Assembly: GCA_029938115.1 (NCBI GenBank)
Contig: JAPYOP010000021.1
Location: 1-64,000 of the forward strand
Direction: 5' to 3'
Source of the DNA: Colwellia sp.
Lineage (GTDB): Bacteria; Pseudomonadota; Gammaproteobacteria; Enterobacterales; Alteromonadaceae
DNA: 64,000 nucleotides
The notes under the pieces were generated by a model, which worked only from the letters and a program-made list of their open reading frames with translations, was not told where the DNA came from and made no database searches. Every line of letters begins with the position of its first letter. Within the stretch, counting starts at the first letter, position 1. This document shows, in pieces, positions 43,480-64,000 of this stretch. The position numbers and the translations under genes were made by a program.

Positions 43480-45930
43480 TTAAAATTCGTATGAAACACT
43501 TACCCCATAAGTACTTGGTTGGCTTGGATAGGCACTATAACTTCCGCCTTGAATCGGTGTAGGGAAAGCAGAAGTAAAATATTCATCATTATTTAAATTT
43601 CGTGCCCAAAGTTGTAAATTAACACCGTTTTCTAAGCTAAGACCGGCACTGGCATTAAAGGTACTTACCGTGCGGGTCATAGATTCTGGCACATTTTCAA
43701 TAATGTGGACCTCACTTTCGTAGCGATAATCGGTACGGAGATAACCATACATACCATTACCAAATTCAAAGTTGTAGGTGATTCCAGCAACGATAGTTTG
43801 TTCAGAGATGCCCGCAGGTTTTTTTCCAGATAAATCTATCGGACCATCGACACCTGAGGCGCCCACAAATGAATCATAAACAGGGTCAAGGAAGGTACCC
43901 GCAAACGTTAATGCCCAATTTTCTGCTGGGGTATAGACAGAATCGAATTCGATACCTTGTGTACTTTGTTTTCCGGCATTAGCCAATACAAAACCTGTAC
44001 CTATAAAAGTTGCAGATTGAAAACCTTCGATTGTTTGATCAAATAGGGTGATATTGATTGCCCCTTTTTCAAACCGTGCTTTCATACCAATTTCATAAAC
44101 AGTAGAGTCTTCCGGGCTGGCATAACGGCCACCGTAGGTTTGATTTTTTTGTGCTAAACCAGCGGTTTCAATTGCCTGTTGATCGGCTTGAAATGGACGG
44201 GTATCACGAGACAAGTTCCATGATGACGCTTTGAAACCGGTAGCGGCCGTGGCAAATAAATTAATATTGTCATTTAGCTCATAGGCCAGGCGCAATGACC
44301 AAGTCGTTTGGCTGTCAGAAGATTCATTATCTTCAACCGAGTTAGGCAATTCAAGCATAGGCGGCATAAACTGCATACCTTTTAAAATTGGAATTGCAGG
44401 CGCAAATGGTGTAAGCGGCAGTGGTACCCCATAAAGGGTTAAATCGTTGTCCAAATCAATGGCGGAAAACGTAGAGTTATTTTGTTGCTTTAACCAAACG
44501 TCTTTTTCATCCTTAGTATAGCTGACACCAAAGGTCGCGGTAAAATCGTCAGTAAGACGATAATCAAAATTAGCAAACAACGAATAAGCATCATTATTTT
44601 GCTCAAATTCAGTAGCGACTACTGTGTCTGCTGAAATATATGAACCAGGTGCATCACCATAAACGGCTTCTACTTGTCCTAACAAACCGGGAGCACCACC
44701 AGCGGCACTTAAAACATCAAAGTAGTTCCTCATATCTTGGCCATAAAACAAAGCGTCTTCAGAATCCACTGTTTCTTGAAAGATAAAAGCGCCTACCATC
44801 CAATCAAATCGGTTGTCGCCAGTAGACGTCAATCGGAATTCTTGAGTAAAGGTATCAATTTTGATGTCACCGGTTTCTCGAATAATATCCAAAGAGGTGT
44901 AATCAATATCGTGAATCCAGGTAGATTCATTATTACGCAGCGCAGTAATTGAAGTAAAAGAAAAACTATCAAAATCGATGTCGAGCTGCAAAGAAAAACC
45001 GCCATCTTCCACGGTATTGTTTGGGTCGATATTGAGGGCTGATTGATAAGCAAAAGGTTCTGTATCACTAAGAACAGTACCGCCTAAAAGTTGAACTGCA
45101 CCCGTTGTAGGTCCATTTATAGCCCTAGAAACAGTACAGCATGTTTCATCAATCTCACTGTAGTCAGCAATAAAGCGCAAAGTTACATCGCTGGTTGGCT
45201 CATATAAAGCCTGCCCACGTATGTTCCAGCGGTCACGGTCATTCATGCCACTCAATCCGGTAACACTGTCGGTGTAACCATCACGGGCATTATACCCCCC
45301 AGAGAAGCTAACGGCTAAAGTGTCCGTTATGCCATTAGTGATATAAGCTTTCATCAGTTGTTGATTATAGTTACCAACACCGACTTCCACTTTACCTTCT
45401 AAATCATGTGAAGGAGCCAAAGTGCGTACATTAATAACCCCTGCTGCTGCATTCTTACCAAATAAAGTACTTTGTGGACCACTGAGTACTTCAATTTGTT
45501 GAAGTCTCGGCAAGTCACCAATTTGGGCGGCCGCACGCGAGCGATAAACACCATCAATAAATACGCCTACCGAAGGTTCAATGCCGATATTATTGGCACC
45601 ATTAGCAAAACCACGAATAGAAAAACTAGCGTTAGTAGAGCGTTGCAATGGTGATACCCGCAATGTCGGCACAAGTGTTTGTAGATCACTAACATCTAAA
45701 ACTTTTGTTTGTTCAACAGCAAGACTGCTGACCACGGTAATTGCAATAGGAGACTCTTGTAATCCTTTGAGACGTTTAGAAGCTGTTACCATTATCCGCT
45801 CTATATCCTTGTCATCTTCTTTTGCGTTAGCATTATCTTCTGCAGCATAGGCTGTAGAGCCTAGTGCGCCTACAACCGATAGCGCGAGTAAAGAATGTTT
45901 AAAAAATTTAAATTTGTTAATATTATTCAT
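43480..45930 (-). CDS. TonB-dependent outer-membrane receptor
   Basis: 816 aa. Signal peptide to about residue 29 (AYA/AEDN), then a TonB-box-like region and plug domain (IMVTASKR, QQIEVLSGPQSTLFGKNAAAG), and a 22-strand-type barrel ending in YGVSVSYEF with C-terminal Phe. The start at 45930 is preferred over the TTG at 45942 because GGGGA lies ahead of it. Resembles receptors for hydrophobic or carbohydrate ligands more than siderophore receptors; no Fur box seen. Probably feeds the catabolic genes downstream in the window. Confidence 0.92.
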   Translation of the reverse strand: MNNINKFKFFKHSLLALSVVGALGSTAYAAEDNANAKEDDKDIERIMVTASKRLKGLQESPIAITVVSSLAVEQTKVLDVSDLQTLVPTLRVSPLQRSTNASFSIRGFANGANNIGIEPSVGVFIDGVYRSRAAAQIGDLPRLQQIEVLSGPQSTLFGKNAAAGVINVRTLAPSHDLEGKVEVGVGNYNQQLMKAYITNGITDTLAVSFSGGYNARDGYTDSVTGLSGMNDRDRWNIRGQALYEPTSDVTLRFIADYSEIDETCCTVSRAINGPTTGAVQLLGGTVLSDTEPFAYQSALNIDPNNTVEDGGFSLQLDIDFDSFSFTSITALRNNESTWIHDIDYTSLDIIRETGDIKIDTFTQEFRLTSTGDNRFDWMVGAFIFQETVDSEDALFYGQDMRNYFDVLSAAGGAPGLLGQVEAVYGDAPGSYISADTVVATEFEQNNDAYSLFANFDYRLTDDFTATFGVSYTKDEKDVWLKQQNNSTFSAIDLDNDLTLYGVPLPLTPFAPAIPILKGMQFMPPMLELPNSVEDNESSDSQTTWSLRLAYELNDNINLFATAATGFKASSWNLSRDTRPFQADQQAIETAGLAQKNQTYGGRYASPEDSTVYEIGMKARFEKGAINITLFDQTIEGFQSATFIGTGFVLANAGKQSTQGIEFDSVYTPAENWALTFAGTFLDPVYDSFVGASGVDGPIDLSGKKPAGISEQTIVAGITYNFEFGNGMYGYLRTDYRYESEVHIIENVPESMTRTVSTFNASAGLSLENGVNLQLWARNLNNDEYFTSAFPTPIQGGSYSAYPSQPSTYGVSVSYEF

Positions 45931-46266
45931 GGAAGTCCCCAATGCATACTAATGTTTGTCACATTTTTTTATAATGTTCTTGACGCTTTATGCGCTCTTT
46001 TTGTTCAAGCATCGTTGTAGTGATGATTTAATCACCGAATTCACCCGACTAAACCATGCTAATTGTTGCTTACAAATTAAGCCAATGAATAATACTTATG
46101 ACTTATTATTCTCCAAAATTATAGTTGTCTTAGTAAAAAGAGCCATATCTGGCATTGATACTATTTAGCTTGTGCATAGTTACCTATAAGCATTATTCAT
46201 TGGTTAAATTTTAAAGGTCGATATAGCATGAATATTAAACTGGTGATAAAAAGGAAGAATAAAGTA
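45931..46266. other. divergent intergenic region between TonB receptor and nitroreductase genes
   Basis: 336 bp, AT-rich. Next to the receptor start it holds ATGCATACTAATGTT (45942-45956), whose 12-base parts recur in the upstream regions of the thiolase gene and the MDR oxidoreductase gene. A short GTGAT/ATCAC inverted repeat lies near 46019-46034. No gene seen. Confidence 0.5.
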
Positions 46267-46929
46267 ATGTCTGTTGAAAAATTGTTGCAAAATCGTGTTT
46301 CTATTCGTGCATTTTTAGATAAGCCCATCGCTGAAAAGACTCTGACAAGTATTTTTGAAAACGCACAACTCTCCCCTTCAAATTGCAACGTACAGCCTTG
46401 GCAAATTTGTGTTGTTTCTGGAAAAAGCCTAGACGCACTTAAAGAACAATTTATGCAGACTTTAATGAGTGGCAGTAAGCCTAATCCTGATTTTAATTGG
46501 TTACCCAAATATGAAGGCATTCACCGTGAACGTCAGTTTGGCTCAGCTAACGCGCTATATAACTCTATAGGTGTTGCCAGAGAAGATAAAAAAGCGCGAC
46601 AAATGGCCATGGTGCGTAACTGGCAATTTTTTGATGCGCCTTATGCGGCATTTTTCACTATGGATAAATACTTAGATATTATGGGCGCTGTTGATTTAGG
46701 TATTTATGCGCAAACATTATCGCTATTATTAACCGAGCAAGGAATTGGCAGTTGTATGCAAGGTGCGTTAGGACAGTTTCCTGATCCGGTTAGAAAAGTT
46801 TTAAATTTACCAGATGAGCGCGGCATTTTATTTGGCATGTCTTTTGGTTACGCTGACGAAAATGCAGCGATCAATAAAACCAAAACAGACAGAGCAACAT
46901 TAGAAAGTGCGGTAGCATTTTTTAATTGA
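46267..46929 (+). CDS. nitroreductase family protein
   Basis: FMN-dependent NAD(P)H oxidoreductase, cytoplasmic. Typical NfnB-like N-terminus (LLQNRVSIRAFLDKPI, then SPSNCNVQPWQICVV) and the C-terminal RKVLNLPDERGILFGMSFGY with flavin-contacting Gly. 220 aa if started at 46267, where GGAAG precedes the ATG; a longer frame from 46228 adds a basic stretch unlike the family. First gene of a three-gene plus-strand unit. Confidence 0.87.
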   Translation: MSVEKLLQNRVSIRAFLDKPIAEKTLTSIFENAQLSPSNCNVQPWQICVVSGKSLDALKEQFMQTLMSGSKPNPDFNWLPKYEGIHRERQFGSANALYNSIGVAREDKKARQMAMVRNWQFFDAPYAAFFTMDKYLDIMGAVDLGIYAQTLSLLLTEQGIGSCMQGALGQFPDPVRKVLNLPDERGILFGMSFGYADENAAINKTKTDRATLESAVAFFN

Positions 46930-46966
46930 TTGAAAATGAGATTAAACATGGAGTAGGAACATAAAT

Positions 46967-47878
46967 ATGCAAAATATTGAATTGGTTACGTTAGTAAATA
47001 CACAAGTCATTCCTATTTGCATATTTTTAATTATGATGGGCATGGGTCTATCTCTCACACTTGATGATTTTAAACGTGTCGTAAAATACCCTAAAGCCGT
47101 AACGGTTGGTTTAACCAATCAGTTATTATTTTTGCCGATAATAGGCTTTGCTTTGGCAAACATTATGCCATTAGAGCCAGAGTATGCTGTGGGCGTTATG
47201 CTACTCGTACTCTGTCCCGGTGGCACCACGTCAAATATGTTTTCTCATTTAGCAAAAGGTGATGTCGCTCTTTCAGTAACCATGACAGCTATAGCAAGCC
47301 TGATCACTGTCTTTAGCATTCCCATTGTCCTTAATTTTTCGTTGGTTCATTTTATGGGGCAAGGCAACGAGTTTAATTTACCCATTATTGCTACCATGTT
47401 TAGCTTAATGAAATTGACTATAGTACCCATTGTTATAGGGATGATAATTAATGCTTTTTATCCTAAATTTGCCAATAGTATACAAGTACATGTCTCAAGG
47501 TTCGGCATTTTATTTCTCACACTTTTAATGATCTTTTTAACCTATATTCAGCAAGACATTGTTCTTTCTGCGTTAATTGCAGCAGGCCCTGTCTCTTTGT
47601 TACTTAATCTTTCAACCATGGCGCTTGGTTATTATTCAAGTAAATGGTTTGGTTTAAATATGGCACAAAGAACATCCATAACAATTGAAGTAGGTTTACA
47701 AAATAGTACGCTCTCAATGTTTATGGCGTTAACTCTGCTAGCAAATTACAAAATGTCCTTTACGCCTGCTATTTATACACTCATCATGTTATTTACCGCA
47801 GGTGTGTTGGTGAAGTTTTTACGTGTTAAGTTTAGTTCTACAACCAAAGCAAATGACAAGAACATGATAAATATTTAA
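46967..47878 (+). CDS. BASS-family (bile acid:sodium symporter) transporter
   Basis: Inner-membrane sodium-coupled carrier with about nine hydrophobic segments. Family features: GMGLSLTLDDFKRV near residue 26, LCPGGTTSNMFSHLAKGD in the core, and EVGLQNSTLSM late. 303 aa. Substrates of bacterial BASS proteins are organic acids, including steroid acids and pantoate. 37 bp after the nitroreductase gene and in the same unit, beside a large catabolic cluster. Confidence 0.88.
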   Translation: MQNIELVTLVNTQVIPICIFLIMMGMGLSLTLDDFKRVVKYPKAVTVGLTNQLLFLPIIGFALANIMPLEPEYAVGVMLLVLCPGGTTSNMFSHLAKGDVALSVTMTAIASLITVFSIPIVLNFSLVHFMGQGNEFNLPIIATMFSLMKLTIVPIVIGMIINAFYPKFANSIQVHVSRFGILFLTLLMIFLTYIQQDIVLSALIAAGPVSLLLNLSTMALGYYSSKWFGLNMAQRTSITIEVGLQNSTLSMFMALTLLANYKMSFTPAIYTLIMLFTAGVLVKFLRVKFSSTTKANDKNMINI

Positions 47879-47922: not shown

Positions 47923-48831
47923 ATGATAAAAAAAATAATAATATCTATTTGTTTAGTTTTAACCACGCTTATACTTACAGCCGGTTGGTATTTTTCATCG
48001 GTGATACTGCAGCTTAGTATTCATGAATGTAATCAAGAACACTATGTATTTTGTGGTGACCCAAGCACTCAAGACATTGAATTTGAAGACGTTAATTTTA
48101 CCAGTGAGGATGGTTTAACACTACCCGGTTGGTACATGGCTGCTAGTGTCAATAATCATAATAATGACAAAGCTATATTACTTGTGCATGGTCGTGGCGC
48201 AAATCGCACCGAAGGCATGCGCTATGCCAAGCCATTAATTGCCGCAGGTTATAACGTATTGGCTTTTGATATGCGTCATCCCCGCCAAAATCCTAATATC
48301 ATATCAACCATGAGCTTTCATGAGAAAAAAGACGTGACCGCCGCTTTGAACTTTTTAGAAAAAGAAAAAAATATTAAGCAGATTGGTCTGATGGGTTTTT
48401 CAATGGGGGCTGCTACGGGCATTATTGTGATGGCAAAAGATCCACGCGTTAAAGTAGGTGTATTTAGTGGTGGTTATGCACACGGCATGGACGTATTAAC
48501 TGAGCAAGCGAAAAAATTACACGGTTTACCGCGTTACCCATTAATGCCTGTCGTTGAAAAACTGTTTGAATGGCGAGGCGATTTAGACAGTGATGAAATA
48601 AACCCAGAAAAATATATTGGTCAAATATCACCCCGCCCTGTGTATATTATGCATGGCACAGCAGACCAAACTGTTGATTTTAGTCATGGTCAACGCTTAT
48701 TCGCAGCGGCTAAAGAGCCTAAGCTATTTTGGCAAGCAGAAGGTGGACGTCATACCCGTTTATGGCAACACGATAAAGAAAAAGCAGAAAACAGTGTGGT
48801 CGACTTTTTTAATCGTTATTTAAAACAATAA
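47923..48831 (+). CDS. membrane-anchored alpha/beta hydrolase
   Basis: One N-terminal membrane segment (about residues 5-25), then an alpha/beta-hydrolase domain: HGRGANRTEG oxyanion region, nucleophile elbow MGFSMGAATG near 157, acid in HGTADQTVDF and His in GGRHTRLW. 302 aa. Likely extracytoplasmic esterase or lipase of unknown substrate. The gene end overlaps that of the convergent dehalogenase-like gene by 23 bp. Confidence 0.78.
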   Translation: MIKKIIISICLVLTTLILTAGWYFSSVILQLSIHECNQEHYVFCGDPSTQDIEFEDVNFTSEDGLTLPGWYMAASVNNHNNDKAILLVHGRGANRTEGMRYAKPLIAAGYNVLAFDMRHPRQNPNIISTMSFHEKKDVTAALNFLEKEKNIKQIGLMGFSMGAATGIIVMAKDPRVKVGVFSGGYAHGMDVLTEQAKKLHGLPRYPLMPVVEKLFEWRGDLDSDEINPEKYIGQISPRPVYIMHGTADQTVDFSHGQRLFAAAKEPKLFWQAEGGRHTRLWQHDKEKAENSVVDFFNRYLKQ

Positions 48832-49720
48832 AGTTAACCACCACTTCAGCCAAAGACTGACCTTGGTCTTCCTGTAAAAAATGACCACCATTTATTATGG
48901 TGGTATGTTTTTGTCCTTTAGTACCAGGGATAAGTTTTTGCATTAATTTATCGCCGCCTGCCGTAATGAGATCAGAGTCACTAAAAGCCGTCAAAAATGG
49001 CTTATGCCACTGAGACAATACTTTCCATGCGGTATGGTTTTTTCCAGCCGCAGGATCATCTGGGGTAATAGGTACTAACAAAGGAAATTGACGAGCGCCC
49101 TCTTTGTATTTTTCTTCAGGAAAAGGCGCATTGTAAGCGGAAATTACCGCTGCGGATAATGCGGTAGTTGTACCACCGTTTATGATATTTCCCGCAGAAA
49201 ACTCAGGCACTTCTTGTGAATGCTTTTGCCACTTTTTAAAGGCTTCTCCGGGATCATGATCCCCTGTTGGTAGCATAGTATTTGCAGCAACGATACGTGC
49301 ATAACGCTGGGTATCTTCAGCCGCTAAACGTAATCCTATTAAACCTCCCCAATCTTGACATACCAGAGTAATATCTTTTAAATCAAGTTGAACAATCAAT
49401 GATTTCATCCAGTCAACATGACGTTGATAAGTGTAATCAATGCGTTTACTTGGTTTATCTGAGCGACCAAAACCAACCAGATCCGGTGCGATAACGCGAT
49501 GACCCGCTTGCACTAGTATTGGAATCATTTTTCGGTATAAAAAGCTCCAGCTAGGCTCGCCATGTAATAATAAAATAGGTGCTGCTTTTTTAGGACCTTC
49601 GTCAAGATAGTGAACACGTAACTGCCCACCTTCAAAGTCATCAACCATTTGGTAATTAGGTGGAAAATCATAGTCTGGTAAATCATTGAAACAACTATCG
49701 TCTGTTCGTAAAAAGTCCAT
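48809..49720 (-). CDS. dhmA: haloalkane-dehalogenase-like alpha/beta hydrolase
   Basis: Alpha/beta hydrolase of the haloalkane dehalogenase type I (DhlA/DhmA) group. HGEPSWSFLYRK near residue 54, nucleophile Asp with halide-binding Trp in CQDWGG near 125, a second acid in FSDSDLIT, and His in GGHFLQEDQG. 303 aa, cytoplasmic. These residues fit a carbon-halogen-cleaving enzyme, but related proteins act on epoxides and esters, so activity is unproven. Last gene of the minus-strand catabolic series. Confidence 0.72.
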   Translation of the reverse strand: MDFLRTDDSCFNDLPDYDFPPNYQMVDDFEGGQLRVHYLDEGPKKAAPILLLHGEPSWSFLYRKMIPILVQAGHRVIAPDLVGFGRSDKPSKRIDYTYQRHVDWMKSLIVQLDLKDITLVCQDWGGLIGLRLAAEDTQRYARIVAANTMLPTGDHDPGEAFKKWQKHSQEVPEFSAGNIINGGTTTALSAAVISAYNAPFPEEKYKEGARQFPLLVPITPDDPAAGKNHTAWKVLSQWHKPFLTAFSDSDLITAGGDKLMQKLIPGTKGQKHTTIINGGHFLQEDQGQSLAEVVVNFIVLNND

Positions 49721-49744: not shown

Positions 49745-51028
49745 TTATTCTTCGCTATTGATTAACAATATCTTGCCCGTACGAATACGTTGAGGATGAT
49801 CGCCCACAGGAATACTGGCAACTTCTTTTGCTTGGTCAAAAGATATCACCGACACTCGGTCTTGTTCACTCACTGATATATAACAAAAACGGCCATCCGC
49901 ACTTTCTGTTGCCCAGTAAGGTTTAGCGCCTAAAGGTGTATCAGATAACTGTATTGTGGTGTATTCAAAACTTTCGCGATCAACAATGGCTGCGTATCCA
50001 GACATAGTTGCCGCAACACAAAGTTTGCTACCTTCGTGATTCATTGCTATACCATGATGAGCAGAATTCAGCTGATAATCGCTGTAGTCCATCTGTTGAA
50101 TTTCGTCAGGGATAGGCAGATCTAATTTGCGAGTTATTTTTTCAAGTTGCATATCGTATTCAAAAAAACCGTGAAAAAATGAAATTTGTAAATAAGCAAA
50201 GCGCTCGTCAGGAGCAATAGCCATTGGTCTTATCGATTTATCAATCCACGGGTTGCCAAATTCTTCAAGCTTTTCACCCATATCAACACGAGATAATACT
50301 TCCATAGTTTTGGCGTCAACAATTTGAAACCAACGATCGCCTTTTAACCAATCTAACCAAGTAGATGAAATGTATACTTTACCAATACTCGCATGATAAA
50401 TACGCTTTCCATCACGTGAATAAGTATTTTCATGAGGTTGGTCACCTGATGAAAATTCGCCAATTATTTTACCTGTTGCGGTATCAATAGCTTGTACTTT
50501 CCTAGCAGTAGAAGCAGAAACTAAAAAGGTTTTTCCGTCAGGAGATAACGCGGCATGATCAGATCTATCTCCTTCAACAGCGGTGCGCCAAACAATCTTA
50601 CCGCTATTGACATCAATAGAGATAACATCAGAAAAGCTAGGGCGTGATGCATAAATAAAGCGCCCATCTTTTGATAAAAACATATCATCAACTAGTTGAT
50701 CATGCCCTTCGCCAATAACTTCATTGATGAAGGTTGATTTTACCCAACGCAGACCAAATGAATATATTTCTTCAAGACGCGCCTCTTTATCAGGAACAAC
50801 ATTAAGTCGTTTAACTAACTCAAAGCTATTAGCATCAATGATATCAACCATGCCATCCCAATTGTTACCAACAATTAGCACATCCCGTAAGGCTATTTCA
50901 TGATTAGGCACATGCGATTGATTGGCAAAAACTATACTAGGGGCCAATGCCATCAGCATAATTGACAAGATTAAATAGCTACAATGCGATGTTATGTGTC
51001 TACTAAACTCTATTATTTTGATGTTCAT
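49745..51028 (-). CDS. periplasmic YncE-like seven-bladed beta-propeller protein
   Basis: Signal/anchor segment (about residues 15-35) followed by repeating propeller blades of the YncE or quinoprotein amine-dehydrogenase-beta type, e.g. [37 protein letters not shown]-like and [12 protein letters not shown]. 427 aa. No catalytic residues are visible. Such proteins often bind ligands or partner periplasmic enzymes; in this cluster it may chaperone or sense the substrate. 24 bp after... upstream of the dehalogenase-like gene and 2 bp after the DUF1295 gene, so co-transcribed. Confidence 0.75.
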
Positions 51029-51030: not shown

Positions 51031-51954
51031 TTACTCAACTTCTTTTTTAATAGGCCCAGGAAAAAAAATATTAGTGGTTTGTTGGTAAGCTTTATATTCA
51101 GGGCGTTTTTGCAGAGAATAGTACTCTGAAGGTATTGCACCGGTATAATAAACCAAAGTGGTATACATCATTCTAGAAGCCATTAATGTTCCAACACCTA
51201 ATAAACCCCAGATTATGATAGCCTCCTGCTGATAAAGTGCCAACCATGATGGAATGGCTGCAATAATTAAACCGTTCCACACCATCCATTCAGCAAAATA
51301 ATTAGGGTGACGGCTGTATTTCCATAAACCGACATTACAGACTTTATTCTTTTTACCTACTTTTTTCATTTGTTTTAAAAATGCCAGTTTTTGCATATCA
51401 GCCACAGTTTCCAAAGCAAATGCACTTAGCCAAACAATAATACCAATAAGTTCAAACATCGAGATGTTGGCATCAGGGTTTGTTGCAATTACAAATGCAG
51501 GCATCGCTAGAAAAGAGGCGTTGGCTAAGCCCTGCAATATCGCTTCTACTTGCATTGCTAATGTTGTGTTCGTCTTACCTGACTTTTTCCACCGGCGCTT
51601 TTGGTATTCATAACGTGGGAATTCAGTTTTTAAATAACCTAATTTCCACATTTTTAAGGCACCTAAGCCCATGCGGCTACCGGCAAAAATATAAGCAATA
51701 CTAACAATGGCCACACGAACACTATCACCTTCACCATATACCCACGTCAGTACACCGATTAACGTTAAACCCCATGGCCAACCTATATCGACATATGACA
51801 TGCGTCCTGTACGCCATGCGGGTAAACAGACTACCAAAGCAAATAATACTAATTGTAATAAGCCATTAGTTAAACTTATTGCCGCTAAATTATCGGTGAA
51901 CAAGAGCAATAGCCAACCGGCGATAAAGATAAATAAAGGCGAAAAATATTTCAT
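51031..51954 (-). CDS. DUF1295 (steroid-5-alpha-reductase-fold) membrane protein
   Basis: Polytopic membrane protein of 307 aa with the DUF1295/isoprenylcysteine-methyltransferase-like signature [20 protein letters not shown] near residue 218; about seven hydrophobic segments. Homologous to the C-terminal part of steroid 5-alpha-reductases, so reduction of a double bond in a sterol-like or lipid substrate is possible but unproven. 14 bp after the molybdopterin oxidoreductase gene and 2 bp before the YncE-like gene. Confidence 0.8.
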
Positions 51955-54930: not shown

Positions 54931-54966
54931 ATCTATTTCCATTGTAATTCTTATCGATTAACAAGC

Positions 54967-55965
54967 TTATAGCTTGACGATTAACTTGCCTTTATTTTGA
55001 CCAGTAAAAAATAAATTTAAACCGGTCATTGCTGACTCAAGCCCTGTTAGAATATGAGCACGATGTTTAATTTTCCCTTGCATCACATAAGGTGAAAGTT
55101 TGGCTAAAAGTGCTGGCACTTCACCAAAATGGTCAGGCATGGTAAACCCTTGAATAGTTAGACGCTTTTTAATGATAGGGATCCAACTTGGCGCTAAATC
55201 AGGCTCTGCTTTTGGATAATCTGCGATCATGCCACAAACAGCAATACGACCATGGGCATTCATTCGGGCAAAAACATGATGCTGTATTGGTCCACCGGTA
55301 TTTTCAAAATAAACATCGATTCCATTCGGTGTTAATTCAGCTAGTTTAGCCGCTAAGTCATCAGTTTTATAATTAATAGCACCGTCAAAGCCTAAGTCGT
55401 TAACAATCCAGTCTGCTTTTTCGTCACTACCAACAATACCGATAACGGTTAGCCCATCAGCTTTTGCCAATTGACCAACAATTGAGCCAACAGAGCCGGC
55501 AGCACCTGAGACAACAAGGGTTTCACCTCTTTGTGGTTTACCTATACTGTAAAGCCCTTGCGTAGCTGTTAAACCCGGTAAAGCAAATACCGATAAAATA
55601 GCTTCATCTGGTAATGGCGCGGTAACTTTATTTAAACCCGTGCCATCAGTTAAAAAGTATTCTTGCCAGCCCATCATGCCCATAATTCGATCGCCAACAC
55701 TAAAGTCAGGATGGTTACTTTCGACAATTTCGCCTACGCCTGAACTTCGCATCACTGTGCCTAATTCAACCGGAGGAATATAACTTTCAGTGTCAGGACT
55801 CATCCAGCCAAACATGGCAGGGTCAAGTGACATATGATTTTGTTTTACTAAAAATTGCCCTTCGCCAACACTTGGCATTTCTTTTTGAACAACTTCAAAT
55901 AGCTCTGGACCTACGGGGCCTCCAGTTGGACGAGCGACTAAATTAATTGCGGTATAAGTTGTCAT
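54967..55965 (-). CDS. NADPH-dependent MDR oxidoreductase (CurA/YfmJ-like)
   Basis: Zinc-free medium-chain reductase of the leukotriene B4 12-hydroxydehydrogenase group, reducing activated C=C bonds of enones. Nucleotide-binding GAAGSVGSIVGQLAK near residue 153; family segment MSLDPAMFGWMSP near 45; no zinc-binding Cys set. 332 aa, cytoplasmic. Preceded by a perfect 8-bp inverted repeat at 56003-56026, so it may be directly regulated. Confidence 0.87.
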   Translation of the reverse strand: MTTYTAINLVARPTGGPVGPELFEVVQKEMPSVGEGQFLVKQNHMSLDPAMFGWMSPDTESYIPPVELGTVMRSSGVGEIVESNHPDFSVGDRIMGMMGWQEYFLTDGTGLNKVTAPLPDEAILSVFALPGLTATQGLYSIGKPQRGETLVVSGAAGSVGSIVGQLAKADGLTVIGIVGSDEKADWIVNDLGFDGAINYKTDDLAAKLAELTPNGIDVYFENTGGPIQHHVFARMNAHGRIAVCGMIADYPKAEPDLAPSWIPIIKKRLTIQGFTMPDHFGEVPALLAKLSPYVMQGKIKHRAHILTGLESAMTGLNLFFTGQNKGKLIVKL

Positions 55966-56027: not shown

Positions 56028-57086
56028 CTAGGCCAAAAGCTGGCTGATGTTTTTAATACTGTTTATGTTTTGCGTTTGGTAAAGCTGATCAAATGCTTGT
56101 GCAAGTTTTTCACTTTCCTTCATTACTTGTTGCCAATAAGCCATACGCTGCTCTCGTTCCATGATGACAAAATCATTGCGATCTGGAATTTTCTGGTGAG
56201 GCAAAGCGGCAATAAATTTTTCTGAGGGACACACGAGTACCGTATTATCATAGTGTTTCATTTTGACTTTTCTTGGTAAGTTTTTATCAAACCAGCCTGC
56301 TTTCAACGTAGAGCTAAAATGCGGATAAAGCGTTAAGCCTGAATTTTCAATTTCAAAATCAAAATGATAATCAACAATACCACCATCTCGATACATGCCT
56401 TTAGGGCTGCTTTCAATATTATTGATACCTTCCATCACCATAGGAATAGAGCCAGAGGCAAGTAGCGCATTGCGTATATTGGCTGTTGAAAAAGGCAAAC
56501 GCGTCGTTGATATATTTTCGGGATCGTTAAGCTTAAAATCGCTATTGCTCGACTGAAAAATAAATCGTTCATATTGACTATCTAACCGTGAACGGCTGAT
56601 TCGATTATTTAGGTAACTTTGTGCTAAACCTAAACCTTGTATAAATTTATTTTCACTCGCAACCAAGCCCTTACATTTAGCGACAATGAAATGTGCTTTA
56701 AAATAAGCGTTATCAATGATTTCTTGTTCGCCATAGTCACCAAAAATAGCATCCATCATTTCAACTGCTTTAGTGCTAACTTCTTCGGGCTTTGCTTTGT
56801 CTGAGTATGTGGTTTCTAAATAGTTTTTAGCGAAACGCTCTATCGCTACAACAGGATTTTTTTGCGCAAAACACGCGACTCTAAAGGCACCAACACTTGA
56901 GCCAATGAGGTTTATTGTTTGTTGCTTATTTTTAAAAAACTCACTAAATATATATTTATCTAATGCATATAAAGTGAACCATTTAGGCCCTCCACTTGCC
57001 CCAAGAAAGGAGGTAAATAGCTCAGGTGAAAATCCTTTTTCTTGAATGGTTTTTAAGGCGGAATTACCCGCGTATATTTCTAGCAT
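56028..57086 (-). CDS. patatin-like phospholipase
   Basis: Patatin-fold acyl hydrolase. Oxyanion Gly-rich segment LGASGGPKWF near residue 29, nucleophile Ser in GSSVGAFR near 64, and catalytic Asp in YRDGGIVDYHF near 235. 352 aa, no signal peptide, so cytoplasmic or membrane-surface. 26 bp downstream of the acyl-CoA ligase gene, so it may release fatty acids for it or hydrolyse an ester intermediate. Confidence 0.8.
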   Translation of the reverse strand: MLEIYAGNSALKTIQEKGFSPELFTSFLGASGGPKWFTLYALDKYIFSEFFKNKQQTINLIGSSVGAFRVACFAQKNPVVAIERFAKNYLETTYSDKAKPEEVSTKAVEMMDAIFGDYGEQEIIDNAYFKAHFIVAKCKGLVASENKFIQGLGLAQSYLNNRISRSRLDSQYERFIFQSSNSDFKLNDPENISTTRLPFSTANIRNALLASGSIPMVMEGINNIESSPKGMYRDGGIVDYHFDFEIENSGLTLYPHFSSTLKAGWFDKNLPRKVKMKHYDNTVLVCPSEKFIAALPHQKIPDRNDFVIMEREQRMAYWQQVMKESEKLAQAFDQLYQTQNINSIKNISQLLA

Positions 57087-57112: not shown

Positions 57113-58768
57113 TTAGCGAAGTTCTTTTCGTAGCACTTTGCCAACGTTTGTTTTAGGTAATTCGTCGAGAAAAGTAACCAATTTTGGTCGTTTATAGTTG
57201 GTCAGTAATTCTCGACAATGATCAAAAATGTCTTGCTCGACTAAATCAGGGCTTTTACGCACAATAAACACTTTGACTTTTTCGCCGGTTATATCACACG
57301 GTGCCGCTATCGCCGCCGCTTCTAAAATACCTTCATGGCTGACCAGCACCTCTTCTATTTCATTGGGATAAACGTTAAAACCAGACACTATAATCATGTC
57401 TTTTTTGCGATCAACAATTTTAAATAAGCCCTTTTCATCCATTGTCGCAATATCGCCAGTGGCTAACCAACCGTCTTTTAGCACTTCGTCTGTCGCTTCT
57501 TGTCGGTTGTAATAACCTTTCATTACTTGCGGACCTTTTACCCACATTTCTCCCGGATCACCAATAGGGACTTCTTTGCCATCATCGTCAAGCAAACGAA
57601 CATTGGTAGATGATGCAGGCACGCCAATGGTGCCATCATAACTTGCTTGGTTATACGGATTCATCGTCACCATAGGCGCGCATTCTGTTAATCCATAACC
57701 TTCCAATAAACGAACACCCGTCACTTTTTCCCAAAGCTCTGCCACAGGGCGTTGTATTGCCATACCGCCACCAAAGCCAAGCTTTAAGGCACTAAAATTA
57801 AGTTTTTCAAAACCTGGTGTATGCAATAAAGCATTAAATAAAGTATTAACGCCAGTAATTGCAGTAAAAGGATATTTGGCTAATTCTTTGACAAAGCCTG
57901 CCATATCTCGTGGATTAGTAATTAATAAATTGGTACCGCCATAAGCAAGGAAACACAAGCAATTAGAAGTGAGAGCGTACACATGATAAAGCGGCAGTGC
58001 CGTGACCATTATTTCTTTACCTGCTTCAAAAACATGTCGAGTCATTTCATTTGACTGAATAAGGTTAGCAACCATGTTTCTGTGGGTTAGCATTACGCCC
58101 TTCGCGGGTCCTGTAGTGCCGCCAGTATATTGTAAAAAGGCTAGATCTTGTCCGGTGATTTCTACAGGATTAAAAGATTGTTTACTGCCCTTAACCAAAG
58201 CTTGATTAAATCTTACTGAATTGGGAAAATGATAGGTGGGTACTTGTTTCTTAACATATTTTAGTACGCCATTGATTAGTGTGCCTTTAACTGCACCGAG
58301 ACGGTCACCTACACCCGTGGTGATAACATGTTCAACATCGGTTTTATCAATAATTGATGCTAGTACATGAGCAAAATTTTCAAGGATAAGAATACCTTTT
58401 GTACCCGAATCTTTTAATTGATGCTCTAATTCGCGCGCGGTATAAAGCGGATTAACATTCACAACCGTTAATCCGGCCTTGAGTGCGCCAAATAATGCAA
58501 CGGGGTACTGAAGAAGGTTAGGGATCATAATGGCAAATTTATCGCCTTTTTTTAACTTTAAACTTTGCTGTAAATAGGCGGAAAAGTCAGTAGCTTGTTG
58601 AGCGAGTTGTTGATAATTAATACTGACATCCATATTTATAAATGCAGTATTACTTTGATATTGCTGAGTATACTTATCAAATAGACTTACTAGCGAATTA
58701 TATTTATCCGCATCAATTTCAAACTCAACTCCAGGTGGATAACTCTTTTCAAGCCAAATTTTTTCCAC
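57113..58768 (-). CDS. fadD: long-chain acyl-CoA ligase (FadD-like)
   Basis: AMP-forming acyl-CoA synthetase that activates a carboxylate for beta-oxidation. AMP-binding motif YTGGTTGPAKG near residue 213, GYGLTECAP near 355, the ATP/hinge DRKKDMIIVSGFNVYPNEIE near 452 and catalytic Lys region TNVGKVLRKELR at the C-terminus. 551 aa. The gene name reflects similarity only; its place among SDR, MaoC and phosphotransferase genes suggests the real substrate could be a cyclic or branched acid. Confidence 0.85.
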   Translation of the reverse strand: MEKIWLEKSYPPGVEFEIDADKYNSLVSLFDKYTQQYQSNTAFINMDVSINYQQLAQQATDFSAYLQQSLKLKKGDKFAIMIPNLLQYPVALFGALKAGLTVVNVNPLYTARELEHQLKDSGTKGILILENFAHVLASIIDKTDVEHVITTGVGDRLGAVKGTLINGVLKYVKKQVPTYHFPNSVRFNQALVKGSKQSFNPVEITGQDLAFLQYTGGTTGPAKGVMLTHRNMVANLIQSNEMTRHVFEAGKEIMVTALPLYHVYALTSNCLCFLAYGGTNLLITNPRDMAGFVKELAKYPFTAITGVNTLFNALLHTPGFEKLNFSALKLGFGGGMAIQRPVAELWEKVTGVRLLEGYGLTECAPMVTMNPYNQASYDGTIGVPASSTNVRLLDDDGKEVPIGDPGEMWVKGPQVMKGYYNRQEATDEVLKDGWLATGDIATMDEKGLFKIVDRKKDMIIVSGFNVYPNEIEEVLVSHEGILEAAAIAAPCDITGEKVKVFIVRKSPDLVEQDIFDHCRELLTNYKRPKLVTFLDELPKTNVGKVLRKELR

Positions 58769-58892: not shown

Positions 58893-60074
58893 TTAAAGTA
58901 CTTCAAATAATCCCGCTGCACCTTGGCCGCCACCGATGCACATACTGATCACGACATACTTAACACCACGACGTTTACCTTCAATTAGCGCATGCATAAC
59001 CATGCGAGTGCCGCTCATGCCATATGGGTGACCAATTGAAATTGCCCCGCCGTTTACATTTAGGCGATCTTCTGGAATACCTAATTTTTCGGCGCAATAA
59101 AGTACCTGTACCGCAAAAGCTTCGTTAATTTCCCACAAGCCAATATCATCCACGGTTAAACCGTTACGCTCAAGTAACTTAGGAATGGCATAGATGGGAC
59201 CAATGCCCATTTCGTCAGGCTCACAACCGGCAACAACTAAACCTCGGTAAGCTCCTAATGGCGTTAGCCCGCGTTGCTCAGCTAGTTCACGCTCCATAAC
59301 AACAACGGCGGCCGCACCATCAGATAATTGCGAAGCATTTCCGCCCGTAATTGAGCCATTATCTCTTACTGTTTTTAAGCCTGATAAACCGGCTAAATTA
59401 GTTGACGGCCGATTACCTTCATCTTTGGTCAAGGTGACTTCTACTGTACTCGTTTCTCCAGTGATTTTGTCCATCACTAGTTTAGTGCAAGTTACGGGCA
59501 CTATCTCATCATCAAACTTAGCTTCAGCTTGTGCTGCGGCAGTGCGTTGTTGAGATTTGAGTGCGTATTCATCTTGTGCTGCGCGTGATATTTCATAACG
59601 ATTTGCGACAATTTCAGCAGTATCAAGCATAGGCATATATATTGCCGAACGATAGGCTTTGACAATGGGGTCAACTGCGCGGTGCATATTCATTTTGTCA
59701 TTTTGAACTAAGCTGATTGAGTCACAACCACCAGCCACAACAACTTGTGCACCATCACAAACGATGTGATTGGCGGCACTAGCAATAGACATTAAGCCCG
59801 ACGAACATTGACGGTCAATAGTCATGCCCGGTACAGAGACAGGGAGCTGTGTGGCCATCACAACCTGACGACCAAAATTCATACCTTGATTGCCTTGTGT
59901 TAATGCTGCGCCAAAAACACAATCTTCAATCTCATTGACATCAACCCCTGCTCTTTCTACCGCTGCTTTTACTGCAATTGCAGCTAAAGTTGGTGCTGAT
60001 AAGTCATTAAATGCTCCCCGATAGGCTTTACCAATAGGGGTACGGGCGGCTGATACAATAACGGCTTCTCTCAT
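58893..60074 (-). CDS. acetyl-CoA acyltransferase (thiolase)
   Basis: Thiolytic cleavage of 3-ketoacyl-CoA, final step of beta-oxidation. Nucleophile Cys in [11 protein letters not shown] near residue 90, GGGQGAAG with the second Cys (SMCIGGGQG) near 380, and [20 protein letters not shown]. 393 aa, the standard length. Its upstream region, beside the SDR stop, holds CATACTAATGTT, also found before the TonB receptor. Confidence 0.93.
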
Positions 60075-60125: not shown

Positions 60126-60139
60126 TACATACTAATGTT
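60126..60139. promoter_or_regulatory. shared upstream motif of the thiolase gene
   Basis: CATACTAATGTT (60128-60139) is identical to 45945-45956 upstream of the TonB receptor. It overlaps the SDR stop codon and lies about 55 bp before the thiolase start. Confidence 0.4.
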
Positions 60140-61052
60140 GTTGTGATTTCATAAAAGCCATGGCTTTCATAACAAATTTTTCACCTTGTTTTGCCCCTGA
60201 TGCTAATTCAGCTTGGTTGTCTTGAGCGGTTAATTCATGCCAATTTTCTCGTACTGCTTCTGGACTTTGTTCAGTTTGTGGAATAAAACATCCTTCGGTT
60301 TCAAAAATACTAGCACTTGCATACCCTCCAGCACCTGCACATAAAATAAATCGGCTTGGCGCATCTTCGTCACACAAAGTAAGCATACCTGCAGTAACGG
60401 CTTCAGGAGCAAATGCTTTGACGATTTCGGCTGGCATTAAATCTTCAGTCATACGTGTTCCTGCGGTAGGAGCAAGCGCGTTAATGTGAATATTATTTTT
60501 AGCCCCTTCAAGTACCAAAGTATTCATTAAGCCCAGCACTGCCATTTTAGCAGCGCCATAATTTGACTGACCAAAGTTACCGTACATGCCACTTGAAGAA
60601 GTGGTCATGACAATGCGGCCATAATTTTGTTCACGCATAATGTCCCAAACAGCCTTCGTACAATTAACAGAGCCCATTACATGCACGTCCATCACTAGTT
60701 TAAAATCATCAATGGTCATTTTTGAAAAGGATTTATCGCGTAAAATCCCTGCATTATTGATAAGAATATCGATTCGTCCCCACTTTTCCATAGCCTGTTG
60801 AATCATGTCTTGTACTTCATCAAAATTTGCGACATTCGCGCCATGGCTAATAGCTTCTCCACCCATGTCTTCGATTAAACGAACCACGTCTTGTGAAGCT
60901 TCACTCGATGCACCACTGCCATCACGTGCGCCGCCTAAATCATTCACGACAACTTTTGCTCCACGTTTAGCCAATTCCAAAGCATGAGAACGTCCTAAAC
61001 CGTTACCGGCACCAGTAACAACGGCAACTTTACCCGCAAAACTTATGGTCAT
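60132..61052 (-). CDS. SDR 3-hydroxyacyl-CoA dehydrogenase (17beta-HSD4-like)
   Basis: Short-chain dehydrogenase of about 306 aa, larger than the usual 250 because of a C-terminal extension like that of multifunctional-enzyme type 2/17beta-HSD4. TGAGNGLGRSHALEL at about 14-28, NDLGG for cofactor choice, catalytic Ser in TSSSGMYGNFGQSNYGAAK with YxxxK. Probably oxidises a (3R)-hydroxyacyl-CoA made by the MaoC hydratase upstream. Confidence 0.88.
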   Translation of the reverse strand: MTISFAGKVAVVTGAGNGLGRSHALELAKRGAKVVVNDLGGARDGSGASSEASQDVVRLIEDMGGEAISHGANVANFDEVQDMIQQAMEKWGRIDILINNAGILRDKSFSKMTIDDFKLVMDVHVMGSVNCTKAVWDIMREQNYGRIVMTTSSSGMYGNFGQSNYGAAKMAVLGLMNTLVLEGAKNNIHINALAPTAGTRMTEDLMPAEIVKAFAPEAVTAGMLTLCDEDAPSRFILCAGAGGYASASIFETEGCFIPQTEQSPEAVRENWHELTAQDNQAELASGAKQGEKFVMKAMAFMKSQQH

Positions 61053-61085
61053 TTTAATTTCCTTTAACTTCTTAATAATTTATCG

Positions 61086-61265: not shown

Positions 61266-61727
61266 CTATTTAACCATTTGAACTGAAACCCACTCAGCAA
61301 CTAGTGCCGGTGTATCGCATCCCTCTATTTCAATGGTAACTTCAGTACATAAACGAAACTGCCCTGGTTTTTTCTCTTCTATTGAGAGCGTTTTTGCATG
61401 TGCTCTAATTCGGCTATTTACCGTAACAGGCTGTAAAAACCTTATTTTATCGAACCCCGCATTTAGCCCCATATAAAAGCCATCAATAATGACACTAAAG
61501 CTTTCGGCAAAATGAGACAACATCGATAATGATAAAAAACCGTGTGCTATGGTTGATCCAAACGGTGTTGCTTTTGCTTTTTCTTCATCAACGTGAATAA
61601 ATTGATGATCAAGTGTGCAGTCTGCAAATTGATTGATTTGCCCTTGATCTATTTGATGCCAATTAGTTGGCTCTGCTTGATGTCCAATAAAATCAGTAAT
61701 ATCTTTTTTATTAATTATTGTCGGCAT
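61266..61727 (-). CDS. MaoC-family (R)-enoyl-CoA hydratase
   Basis: Hot-dog-fold hydratase adding water to enoyl-CoA to give (3R)-hydroxyacyl-CoA. MaoC signature FGSTIAHGFLSLSMLSHF near residue 51 with the catalytic Asp/His region (DHQFIHVDEEKA). 153 aa. Its (R)-stereochemistry pairs with the 17beta-HSD4-like SDR downstream, an arrangement typical for side-chain degradation of steroid-like acids. Confidence 0.9.
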   Translation of the reverse strand: MPTIINKKDITDFIGHQAEPTNWHQIDQGQINQFADCTLDHQFIHVDEEKAKATPFGSTIAHGFLSLSMLSHFAESFSVIIDGFYMGLNAGFDKIRFLQPVTVNSRIRAHAKTLSIEEKKPGQFRLCTEVTIEIEGCDTPALVAEWVSVQMVK

Positions 61728-61921: not shown

Positions 61922-62683
61922 TTAAGCCGCAGAGACACCGCCATCAATAGCGATGCATTGACCTGTCATATAACTATTAGCTGGGGATAACATCATTAAC
62001 ATCATAGCAACCACTTCTTTAGGCTGTGCTAATCGCTTCATCGGTGCACCTTGACTCATTTTAGCCTGCGCGTTGTCATCAGCCATATCAGTGACCATTT
62101 GAGTTAAAGTAAAAAAAGGACAAATAGCATTGATACGAATATTATAACGGCCATATTCAACCGCTCCGGTTTTAGTTAAACCAATAACCGCATGTTTCGC
62201 CATAGAATAAGCACCTACTTTGGCTGCGCCACAAAGACCCGCCATTGAGCTGACATTCAATATAGCGCCACCTTGTTGCTTTAACATTTGTTCAATTTGA
62301 TGACTCATACCAAATTGAACTCCTTTAACATTCACTGCAAATTGACTGTCCATTAACGCTTCGTCAATTTGATGCAAAGCAGTAAATTCATGGGCAATAC
62401 CCGCATTGTTCACGCCAATGTCAACACCTCCAAAGTGTTCAATGGCTATATCAACCATTTTTTTACATTCTTCGTTTTTTGAGACATCACATTTTAAGGC
62501 AAAAACCTCAGCTCCTGTGGCAGCAATATCATCAGCTACTTGCTGAACACCTGCTTCGTTAACATCGCTAATGACTAATTTAGCACCTCGTTGAGCTAAT
62601 TCTTGTGCAAGTAATTTACCAAAGCCTTGTGCTGCACCGGTGATAACGGCAACTTTTCCAGTAAAGTCTAATAATGGATCCAT
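61922..62683 (-). CDS. SDR-family NAD(P)-dependent dehydrogenase
   Basis: 253-aa short-chain dehydrogenase. TGAAQGFGKLLAQEL at about 16-30, NNAGIA, catalytic Ser in VSSMAG and YSMAK (Tyr/Lys). C-terminal YMTGQCIAIDGG is the usual cofactor-side end. Substrate unknown; 12 bp after the phosphotransferase gene, 194 bp before maoC. Confidence 0.9.
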   Translation of the reverse strand: MDPLLDFTGKVAVITGAAQGFGKLLAQELAQRGAKLVISDVNEAGVQQVADDIAATGAEVFALKCDVSKNEECKKMVDIAIEHFGGVDIGVNNAGIAHEFTALHQIDEALMDSQFAVNVKGVQFGMSHQIEQMLKQQGGAILNVSSMAGLCGAAKVGAYSMAKHAVIGLTKTGAVEYGRYNIRINAICPFFTLTQMVTDMADDNAQAKMSQGAPMKRLAQPKEVVAMMLMMLSPANSYMTGQCIAIDGGVSAA

Positions 62684-62695
62684 GAGAAAACTCCT

Positions 62696-63745
62696 TTAAT
62701 TTTTTGTTGTTTTGGTTGTTTCTGCGATAACCTGTAAGGCCATTTTTGCCAGTGGTTCGACAAACGCGCCCACTTTTTTGGCATTATCGTTGGACGCATT
62801 ACCCTGGGAAGCACGCTTAGCCACGCCTTGTGCAATTGCCGCCAATCGGAAAAAGCTGAATGCTAAATAAAATGTCCAGTGATCTATGTTGTCGATGCCC
62901 ATTCGTTGGCAATAACTTGCGACATATTCTTCTTCTGTGGGGATGCCTAAATTGGCACGATTGATACCTTGCAAACCATCAATACTCCCCATACCTGACG
63001 GCATGCGCAATTGCATACATTGATAGGCTAAATCTGCATATGGATGACCTAACGTTGATAATTCCCAGTCAAGTAATGCAATGATTTCTGGTTTGTTTTT
63101 ATCAAACATCATGTTGTCTAAACGAAAGTCGCCATGAACTAAACAAACTCTACCGTCATCATCAGGCAAATGATCTGCTAGCCATTGAGCTAAATCATCC
63201 ATGGCGACTATTTTTTGTAGTTCAGTAACACGGTATTGTGATGTCCAGCGACCTAGCTGACGCTCGAAGTAATTGCCTGCTTTACCGTAACCACTTAAGC
63301 CAACAGCATTTACGTCAACACTATGTAAAGCAACGAGCGTTTTATTCATCGCATCGTACATTTGTGCACGGCGTTCATTATTATCAATTTCAGCTAATGA
63401 GGCACTCCAATAAACATTGCCATCACAAAACTCCATGACATAAAACATTGAGCCGATAATATCGGTGTTTTCACACAGGTGATAAACTTTCGCTACAGGC
63501 ACATTGGTTGCTTTTAAAGCATTAAGTACTTTAAATTCTCGGTCAACGGCATGTGCTGATTTTAATAATTTACCTGGGGGCTGGCGACGTAATACATAAA
63601 CTCCTGATTGCGCAGTTACTTTAAATGTGGGGTTTGATTGACCACCCGAAAATTTATCCATTGTCATTGGACCTTTAAAGCCATCAACATGCGCTTCGAG
63701 GTAAGCGGTTAGCGCTTCAATATTAATAGATAACGTTTTTGACAT
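62696..63745 (-). CDS. phosphotransferase family protein (ACAD10/11 kinase-domain-like)
   Basis: Aminoglycoside-phosphotransferase-fold kinase of 349 aa: N-lobe YVLRRQPPGKLLKSAHAVDREFKVL near residue 51, catalytic loop VHGDFRLDNMMFD near 204 and metal-binding LLDWELSTLGHPYADLAY near 225. In ACAD10/11 enzymes this domain phosphorylates 4-hydroxyacyl-CoA so a dehydrogenase domain can remove phosphate. Here it precedes SDR, MaoC and thiolase genes and follows an acyl-CoA dehydrogenase gene, suggesting a 4-hydroxy acid route. Confidence 0.88.
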   Translation of the reverse strand: MSKTLSINIEALTAYLEAHVDGFKGPMTMDKFSGGQSNPTFKVTAQSGVYVLRRQPPGKLLKSAHAVDREFKVLNALKATNVPVAKVYHLCENTDIIGSMFYVMEFCDGNVYWSASLAEIDNNERRAQMYDAMNKTLVALHSVDVNAVGLSGYGKAGNYFERQLGRWTSQYRVTELQKIVAMDDLAQWLADHLPDDDGRVCLVHGDFRLDNMMFDKNKPEIIALLDWELSTLGHPYADLAYQCMQLRMPSGMGSIDGLQGINRANLGIPTEEEYVASYCQRMGIDNIDHWTFYLAFSFFRLAAIAQGVAKRASQGNASNDNAKKVGAFVEPLAKMALQVIAETTKTTKN

Positions 63746-63780
63746 TGGCCTGATACTCTTGAGATAAATATGTACTAGCC

Positions 63781-63801
63781 CCCTAGATTAAAATCTAAGG
63801 G
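63781..63801 (-). terminator. weak terminator-like hairpin between the acyl-CoA dehydrogenase and phosphotransferase genes
   Basis: Stem CCCTAGATT / AATCTAAGGG with one bulged base and a short loop, 7 bp downstream of the acyl-CoA dehydrogenase stop on the minus strand. No T-run follows, so it may be a processing or pausing site. Confidence 0.35.
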
Positions 63802-63807
63802 ACTCGT

Positions 63808-64000
63808 TTAACTGGTAATTTGTTTTACTAAATCACGCCCTAATTGCATCATATGCACTTGGTCTGGTCCATCTGCTAAACGTAAAGTACGCTGACCTGC
63901 ATAAGCATGTGCTAAGAAAGTATCTTGACTGACACCCACAGCGCCATGACACTGAATAGCTCGGTCAATAACATCAAGTGCCATACTTGGCGCAACAATT
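63808..64000 (-). CDS. acyl-CoA dehydrogenase, C-terminal end (partial)
   Basis: The window end cuts this minus-strand gene; 63 residues remain, ending at TAA (63808-63810). They contain the acyl-CoA dehydrogenase C-terminal segment [20 protein letters not shown] and [18 protein letters not shown], as in ACAD10/11 proteins. It precedes the phosphotransferase gene in the same direction, so together they recreate the two domains of eukaryotic ACAD10/11. Confidence 0.85.

Follow-up and report, generated by a model that had tools for sequence, protein, structure and literature searches.

The window, that is, the whole stretch of DNA analysed here, comprises bases 1-64000 of the 72,427-base contig C98 from a Colwellia sp. 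genome (5.2 Mb, 99.6% complete), and it holds most of a real, conserved, accessory catabolic operon. Within this operon, an APH-type kinase and an ACAD11-like acyl-CoA dehydrogenase (ACAD) are a split version of ACAD10/11 and, judging by homology and conserved catalytic residues, a predicted 4-hydroxyacyl-CoA module. With a probability of roughly 0.6, the operon as a whole would degrade acyl chains with an oxygen function at C4 (4-hydroxy or 4-oxo forms, as well as 2,3-unsaturated ones) by beta-oxidation through an ACAD10/11-type phosphate route, candidate substrates being, for example, oxidised fatty acids like oxylipins or lipid-peroxidation products. The gene run consists of 17 minus-strand genes separated by gaps of 2-213 bp, from a haloalkane dehalogenase gene (HLD, at 48809) to a histidine-phosphatase gene, and extends beyond 64000 up to a divergent LysR gene ending at contig base 68885. 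Because so many genes share one strand with short gaps, and because their order is kept in other genera, the grouping is more than chance. A sequence-only reading had seen in 43480..64000 a large catabolic region for a hydrophobic, possibly steroid- or terpenoid-like substrate. Profile matches found all the proteins it named at about the positions it gave, and the large catabolic region, the hydrophobic acyl substrate, the (R)-hydratase/(R)-dehydrogenase chemistry, and the ACAD10/11-type kinase were retained, while the steroid or terpenoid part was not. The range itself proved incomplete, since the genes for an Old Yellow Enzyme (OYE)-family protein (contig C98 65077-66192, minus strand), a third SDR (SDR3, 66262-67035, minus), a histidine-phosphatase-family protein (67097-67825, minus; L009:5097-5825), and the divergent LysR regulator (67971-68885) follow beyond the window.

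The kinase (62696..63745, minus) aligns over residues 8-347 with the solved ACAD11 chains 8v3u and 8v3v at 287-291 bits, and only the bacterial chain 3dxp scores higher (361 bits). The ACAD gene (63808-65019 of C98, minus; L009:1808-3019; 403 aa), of which only the C-terminal end (63808..64000) lies in the window, matches ACAD11 chains at 439-445 bits (2wbi, 445 bits); the fourth match, 4hr3, reaches 408 bits, and the fifth drops to 156. The catalytic Asp of HGDF (HGDFRLDN, HxD...N) is kept in the kinase when aligned with ACAD11, with Ala at that place in 8v3u. Likewise, the Asp in LADGPD of the ACAD aligns with the ACAD11 Asp, which is Asn in 8v3v, and with Glu of 5ol2, so that Asp replaces the usual Glu base. 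PMC12440821 describes the inactivating changes as Asp to Ala in the kinase and Asp to Asn in the ACAD, from which we infer that 8v3u and 8v3v are these inactive mutants. The same source presents an HCMR motif as specific to ACAD10/11 and essential, and also points out an upstream Arg. Both elements of this 4-phosphate-binding set are carried by the window ACAD (GRLGPGRIHHCMR), and HCMR is absent from all ten other genes of the genome with an ACAD N-terminal domain, as read in six frames of their loci. Mammalian ACAD10/ACAD11 thus share with the Colwellia pair the catalytic Asp in each half, HCMR, and the upstream Arg, while in the window two separate genes take the place of one protein. These genes are 62 bp apart, and a FadD ligase gene lies in the same run. 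In vitro, according to PMC11342911, a bacterial kinase and a bacterial ACAD each stood in for the matching ACAD10 domain, the kinase favoured the R form, and E. coli FadD served to load 4-OH-C10. In a class sample of 274 genomes, the kinase was detected in 25 (E <= 1e-60; E-value thresholds were chosen by the authors), and of 26 kinase loci (the window's own excluded), 11 encode within 1.5 kb an ACAD with 46-68% identity to the window ACAD, HCMR and DGPD being present in 11/11 by an alignment-based count. An OYE gene lies within 1.5 kb at two of these 26 loci.

While the kinase/ACAD step is read from conserved catalytic residues, the remaining steps of the proposed route are assigned by family membership; since FadD, MaoC, an MFE-2-type SDR, thiolase, and two enone-reductase families are present as well, a full route can be outlined. 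A TonB receptor together with patatin and alpha/beta hydrolases would provide uptake and release of the acid, the MDR and OYE proteins would saturate an enone or enal, and FadD would form the CoA ester. One other SDR of the operon would then convert 4-oxo to 4-hydroxy in the manner of LvaD. One possible candidate is SDR2 (61922..62683, minus), which is collinear in relatives and matches the SDR family with no specific subfamily. The kinase would phosphorylate the 4-OH group, the ACAD11-like enzyme would remove the phosphate to give 2-enoyl-CoA, and MaoC would hydrate the latter to (R)-3-hydroxyacyl-CoA, which the MFE-2-type SDR would oxidise before the thiolase frees acetyl-CoA.

The ligase (57113..58768, minus) is of the E. 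coli FadD type by profile (long-chain acyl-CoA ligase PRK08974, 840 bits, just under the cut-off of 884), and a second copy, 70% identical, is located at C273. The 3-oxoacyl-CoA thiolase (58893..60074, minus) scores 415.5 bits with TIGR01930 (cut-off 240.6). The SDR at 60132..61052 (minus) is classed as an MFE-2/17beta-HSD4-type (R)-3-hydroxyacyl-CoA dehydrogenase (2et6, 400 bits; 1gz6, 273 bits; 3oml, 240 bits), and the top four of its 20 solved relatives are a (3R)-hydroxyacyl-CoA dehydrogenase, two 17beta-HSD4 chains, and peroxisomal MFE-2. The MaoC-type enoyl-CoA hydratase, (R)-specific by family, is encoded at 61266..61727 (minus; PF01575, 78.2 bits, cut-off 27). By family, MaoC, this SDR, and the thiolase make up an (R)-specific beta-oxidation set. 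As in peroxisomal MFE-2 (17beta-HSD4), hydratase and (R)-dehydrogenase stand side by side, although in the window they are separate genes, with one short MaoC domain. The MDR 2-alkenal/enone reductase of the CurA/prostaglandin-reductase family (54967..55965, minus) scores 324 bits with NF058644 (cut-off 440). The solved relatives of MDR and OYE include 2-alkenal reductase, prostaglandin reductase (1), and 12-oxophytodienoate reductase, the closest ones being other double-bond, nitroester, or morphinone reductases.

Several points weigh against this assignment. The chain length and the source of the substrate are not readable from sequence, and the enone-reductase families of MDR and OYE are broad. 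A 601-aa ACAD found in the operons of most relatives is missing in the window, where a 194-bp gap lies between SDR2 and MaoC instead; its nearest paralogues in the genome are 33-36% identical, as compared with 71-90% among orthologues. This gene may be hidden in an assembly gap; as it is missing here, a different enzyme would have to serve the later rounds of beta-oxidation. No aldehyde dehydrogenase is among the operon genes listed (no search of the genome was aimed at it), and the molybdenum (Mo) enzyme, DUF1295, and HLD are superfluous to the 4-hydroxyacyl scheme. Finally, at 15 of the 26 class-sample kinase loci no such ACAD was found within 1.5 kb.

The closest known bacterial system is small. 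The lva operon of Pseudomonas putida (LvaA kinase, LvaC ACAD, LvaD SDR, LvaE ligase) resembles the window operon in its kinase, Asp-type ACAD, CoA ligase, and SDRs, a likeness drawn from descriptions rather than from Lva sequences, with LvaB, the kinase partner, outside the comparison. In PMC9399607, the lva route is described as phosphorylating 4-hydroxyacyl-CoA, which then becomes a beta-oxidation intermediate, and LvaD as reducing 4-oxoacyl-CoA ahead of the kinase. The window operon is much larger than lva, with MaoC, the MFE-2-type SDR, thiolase, FadD, enone reductases, hydrolases, HLD, the Mo enzyme, DUF1295, and LysR. In papers of 2024 and 2025, 4-hydroxy acid catabolism via phosphorylation is assigned to ACAD10/11, the small lva operon being the bacterial model. 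A literature search found no publication on an operon of this gene content. Thus, the suggestion that the pathway could be new holds for the gene set, which is new and larger than the known lva variant, and not for the basic chemistry, which is known. A conserved marine operon of ~17 genes around the kinase/ACAD pair would bring larger oxygenated acyl chains of the marine environment within the reach of ACAD10/11 chemistry, and it places a haloalkane dehalogenase, DUF1295, and the Mo enzyme in a concrete setting.

The operon was compared in 29 stretches from 26 genomes (two stretches each for G026, G037, and G607). The order LysR / phosphatase, SDR3, OYE, ACAD, kinase, SDR2, 601-aa ACAD, MaoC, SDR, thiolase, FadD is kept in G316, G468, G511, and G610; the same LysR-to-FadD order is found in G603, G604, and G606, and in G608 as far as the stretch reaches. 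It is also kept in G007, where OYE, MaoC, and thiolase are in pieces, in G443, G542, and G611 minus OYE, and in G469 with no thiolase detected. G022 and G029 have TonB, the core, MDR, and HLD, with no LysR in the stretch and without the Mo enzyme, DUF1295, the haem protein, and patatin, which makes this part look like an optional insert. G016 bears a shuffled partial set with a nearby ACAD of only 52% identity, and G003, G026, G032, G605, G612, G614, and G615 have operon parts only, some because of contig ends. The collinear genomes span several genera in the family to which the window belongs and extend to another family of the same order. The type strains of Cognaticolwellia mytili and C. 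aestuarii (L011 and L013) are carriers as well. A TonB gene lies near the operon in G316, G016, G037, G022, and G029; at the far end, TonB, BASS, and nitroreductase recur together in G316, and BASS with nitroreductase in G037 and L015.

Among the 39 genus genomes, the kinase was found in 10 (E <= 1e-20), nine of them at an identity of at least 64%, including all four that carry the Mo orthologue (85-100% identity). This co-occurrence gives a Fisher p of 0.0015, or 0.0066 without the genome under study, both uncorrected for kinship. The kinase is likewise present in 22/22 handles selected for carrying the Mo orthologue (L078 instead for having OYE beside DUF1295), which represent 20 distinct genomes, since L016 = G016 and L037 = G542 by coordinates. 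In G443, G469, and G542, the kinase operon is distant from the Mo gene or on a different contig. In the Colwellia genome of L016, a second, more distant ACAD-SDR-kinase-phosphatase-SDR set (L016:15981-20709) adjoins the operon, with identities of 52% for the ACAD, 31% for the kinase, and 33% for the phosphatase.

This distribution bears on one alternative, namely that the region is a general fatty-acid beta-oxidation cluster whose neighbours are unrelated. FadD, thiolase, MaoC, and SDR are indeed general fatty-acid enzymes, yet the accessory distribution (close kinase in 9/39 and Mo orthologue in 4/39 genus genomes), the second FadD elsewhere in the genome, the ACAD11 type of the operon ACAD, and the long collinearity reaching the divergent LysR all speak against this explanation, which we regard as unlikely.

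The histidine-phosphatase-family protein accompanies the kinase in 15 of the 22 kinase-bearing stretches (at least 40% identity). By analogy, it could take part in 4-phosphoacyl-CoA recycling. According to PMC11342911, ACAD10 has a fused HAD domain for which such recycling was considered as a role, and the window operon has the histidine-phosphatase-family protein where ACAD10 has HAD.

Catabolism of a steroid, a sterol side chain, or a terpenoid would agree with several family names in the region. The DUF1295 membrane protein (51031..51954, minus; PF06966, 121.9 bits) passes the Steroid_dh cut-off (27.9 vs 22.6 bits); members of the BASS, OYE, and MDR families, as well as an SDR bearing the name 17beta-HSD4, would suit such a substrate, and OYE matches BaiCD at 184 bits (cut-off 825). 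However, "17beta-HSD4" is the historical name of peroxisomal (3R)-hydroxyacyl-CoA dehydrogenases, which are the best solved relatives of the SDR, so that this SDR, whose pairing with the hydratase had been taken as a sterol sign, argues for fatty-acid oxidation instead. The thiolase reaches 269 of the 515 bits of the steroid thiolase model, and thiolase, ligase, and SDR are all of fatty-acid types. The BASS transporter (46967..47878, plus), also cited as recalling sterol side-chain degradation, attains 203 bits with TIGR00841 (cut-off 326); no specific model was reached, and its substrate is not predictable from profile matches. Across the whole 99.6%-complete genome, neither KshA (KshA_C, PF19298) nor the HsaC extradiol dioxygenase (NF045631) gave a match, although no control genome passed either cut-off. 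FAD_binding_2 gave 24 matches in the genome, the top two of which are probably SdhA and NadB. The third strongest, a KstD-sized flavoprotein and the only one classified (the other 23 were left unclassified), belongs to PRK12834 (484.9 bits, cut-off 476) and scores 61.5 of 788 bits as a 3-oxosteroid 1-dehydrogenase. The steroid or terpenoid label was dropped, as KshA and HsaC were searched for genome-wide without a match (in searches lacking a positive control) and the one classified KstD-sized candidate is another dehydrogenase; with a second cluster, on C147 (L120), looking more like a side-chain set, we consider it very unlikely.

DUF1295 had also served as a steroid hint. Related by profile to steroid 5-alpha-reductases, it carries the motif RHPNYFAEW, invariant in 30 aligned sequences, and its best-matching named records are from Colwellia and Cognaticolwellia. 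Its homologues (59-76% identity; best 80 of 185 confirmed loci) are found in a wide variety of unrelated gene neighbourhoods, the records carrying labels of several phyla, and thus the protein itself is no pointer to steroids. As a guide to function, its neighbourhood was set aside, the neighbours being too variable outside Colwellia-type loci.

The cluster on C147 (L120:5193-18050) encodes a thiolase of the lipid-transfer type (PRK08256, 547 bits, cut-off 436) together with an ACAD and, by eye from the first residues, a second ACAD, an acyl-CoA ligase, a CaiB/BaiF-like CoA transferase, a MaoC-like protein, a TonB receptor, and SDRs. It looks more like a set for sterol side chains than the genes of the window do.

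The haloalkane dehalogenase (48809..49720, minus) is assigned to HLD-I (PRK00870, 483 bits, cut-off 265) and matches 6f9o at 500 bits over 299 residues, keeping D123-W124, FSDSD, and GGHF, whose Asp-Trp pair, Asp, and His we take to be catalytic. The HLD-I dehalogenases presumably also include DpcA of Psychrobacter; what distinguishes the window enzyme from them is its position in an acyl-CoA operon. Of the 14 loci that could be read, 11 have HLD inside the operon (window, G511, G468, G016, G037, G022, G029, G607, L011, L013, and L015), a count that leans to presence since a locus was counted as readable once HLD was seen; it is absent in G316, L010, and G026, where 4-8 kb further is readable. 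The count excludes loci that end nearer (such as G611, G542, G443, G469, and G610), as well as G007 and G003, which run 1.4-1.5 kb past FadD with no HLD seen. In the class sample, which judging by the handles is the same 274 genomes as for the kinase, HLD was detected in 16 (E <= 1e-50); with the genome under study excluded (n=273), it occurs in 8 of the 24 genomes with the kinase and in 7 of the 249 without (Fisher p = 4.6e-6, uncorrected for kinship).

Such figures invite the idea of halogenated lipid catabolism, where the dehalogenase would swap a halogen at carbon 4 for OH, which the kinase/ACAD pair would then remove. The 11/14 count, which includes G022 and G029, whose short versions show no Mo enzyme as far as they were read, and the class-sample association, subject to kinship as it is, are in line with this idea. 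Yet at none of the 18 class-sample HLD loci other than the window's does the kinase lie within 1.5 kb, HLD loci outside the order show no link to the kinase, and the operons of G316, L010, and G026 lack HLD in the stretch read. We know of no natural HLD-I substrate, which we also count against the idea, and on balance we judge it distinctly unlikely. In an equally speculative and rather improbable extension, gamma-functionalised lipids would be broken down by a marine route where HLD makes 4-hydroxy from 4-halogenated fatty acids for the ACAD10/11-type pair, while the Asp-ligated Mo enzyme and the DUF1295 membrane reductase act as an optional extension opening further substrates; if true, this would mean that HLD-I enzymes of marine bacteria have a role in nature.

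The Mo enzyme (51969..54083, minus), a molybdopterin oxidoreductase of the DMSO-reductase family, is Fdh-like in sequence and has Asp at the metal-ligand position. It shares the 4Fe-4S and molybdopterin domains with the formate dehydrogenase H family (272 bits with the family model, cut-off 666); its Asp138-Gln139, however, align with Sec-His of 9t1s, where Sec is shown as X. A formate dehydrogenase identity was rejected because D138-Q139 stand where Sec or Cys followed by His is required. Asp138 is invariant in 11 aligned sequences, made up of the window protein plus 10 homologues from a cluster of 12 (L012 and L049 omitted). No leader peptide is evident by eye, and no partner subunits adjoin the gene. 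Asp ligands are found in hydrocarbon-hydroxylating DMSO-reductase type II enzymes, and some carriers are presumably from oil enrichments; degradation of a hydrocarbon or alicyclic compound, with the Asp-ligated enzyme hydroxylating the substrate without oxygen, would fit the Asp at this position. Its Fdh-like sequence with neither partner subunits beside it nor an evident leader, together with the core operons of G022 and G029 that lack the enzyme and whose best Mo-family matches are distant, makes this explanation extremely improbable.

DUF1295 adjoins the Mo enzyme in 8 of 12 Mo-bearing operon loci, the four others being G511, G316, G468, and G026. In L078, DUF1295 has OYE as a neighbour, and in L156 OYE adjoins a Mo enzyme of 47% identity. 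In 7 of the 12 Mo-bearing loci (L010, L011, L013, L015, G316, G468, and G511), there are a MoxR-type AAA ATPase and a VWA/CoxE-like protein, 85-100% identical to those of L011 (L011:10945-12958), while in four (window, G016, G037, and G607) a beta-propeller protein replaces this pair, and G026 has neither. A match to PF20030 (MoxR of MoxR-vWA-beta-propeller systems) remains below the cut-off.

The other genes of the region include several that had been passed over in the sequence-only reading, namely the nitroreductase, the alpha/beta hydrolase, the beta-propeller protein, and the P460-like protein. The TonB-dependent receptor (43480..45942, minus) matches PF00593 at 104.5 bits and PF07715 at 57.8 bits. 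It is followed by a nitroreductase-family flavoprotein (46228..46929, plus; PF00881, 88.7 bits), which, like the BASS/SBF-family transporter, is also present in G316, G037, and L015, and, beyond that transporter, by the alpha/beta hydrolase (47923..48831, plus; PF12146, 48.1 bits), also found in L015 at 69%. The patatin-like acyl hydrolase (56028..57086, minus; PF01734, 32.0 bits, cut-off 27.7) has GxSxG and DGG motifs. The beta-propeller protein (49745..51028, minus; TIGR03866, 66.4 bits, cut-off 287) is predicted to be exported from a hydrophobic N terminus seen by eye. The same holds for the one-haem P460-like protein (54256..54942, minus; PF16694, 26.6 bits, just under the cut-off of 27), which by eye has a hydrophobic N terminus and a single CxxCH, CFSCH at 154. 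This haem protein sits between MDR and the Mo enzyme and is more weakly conserved (55-87%), being undetected in G468, G607, and L013.

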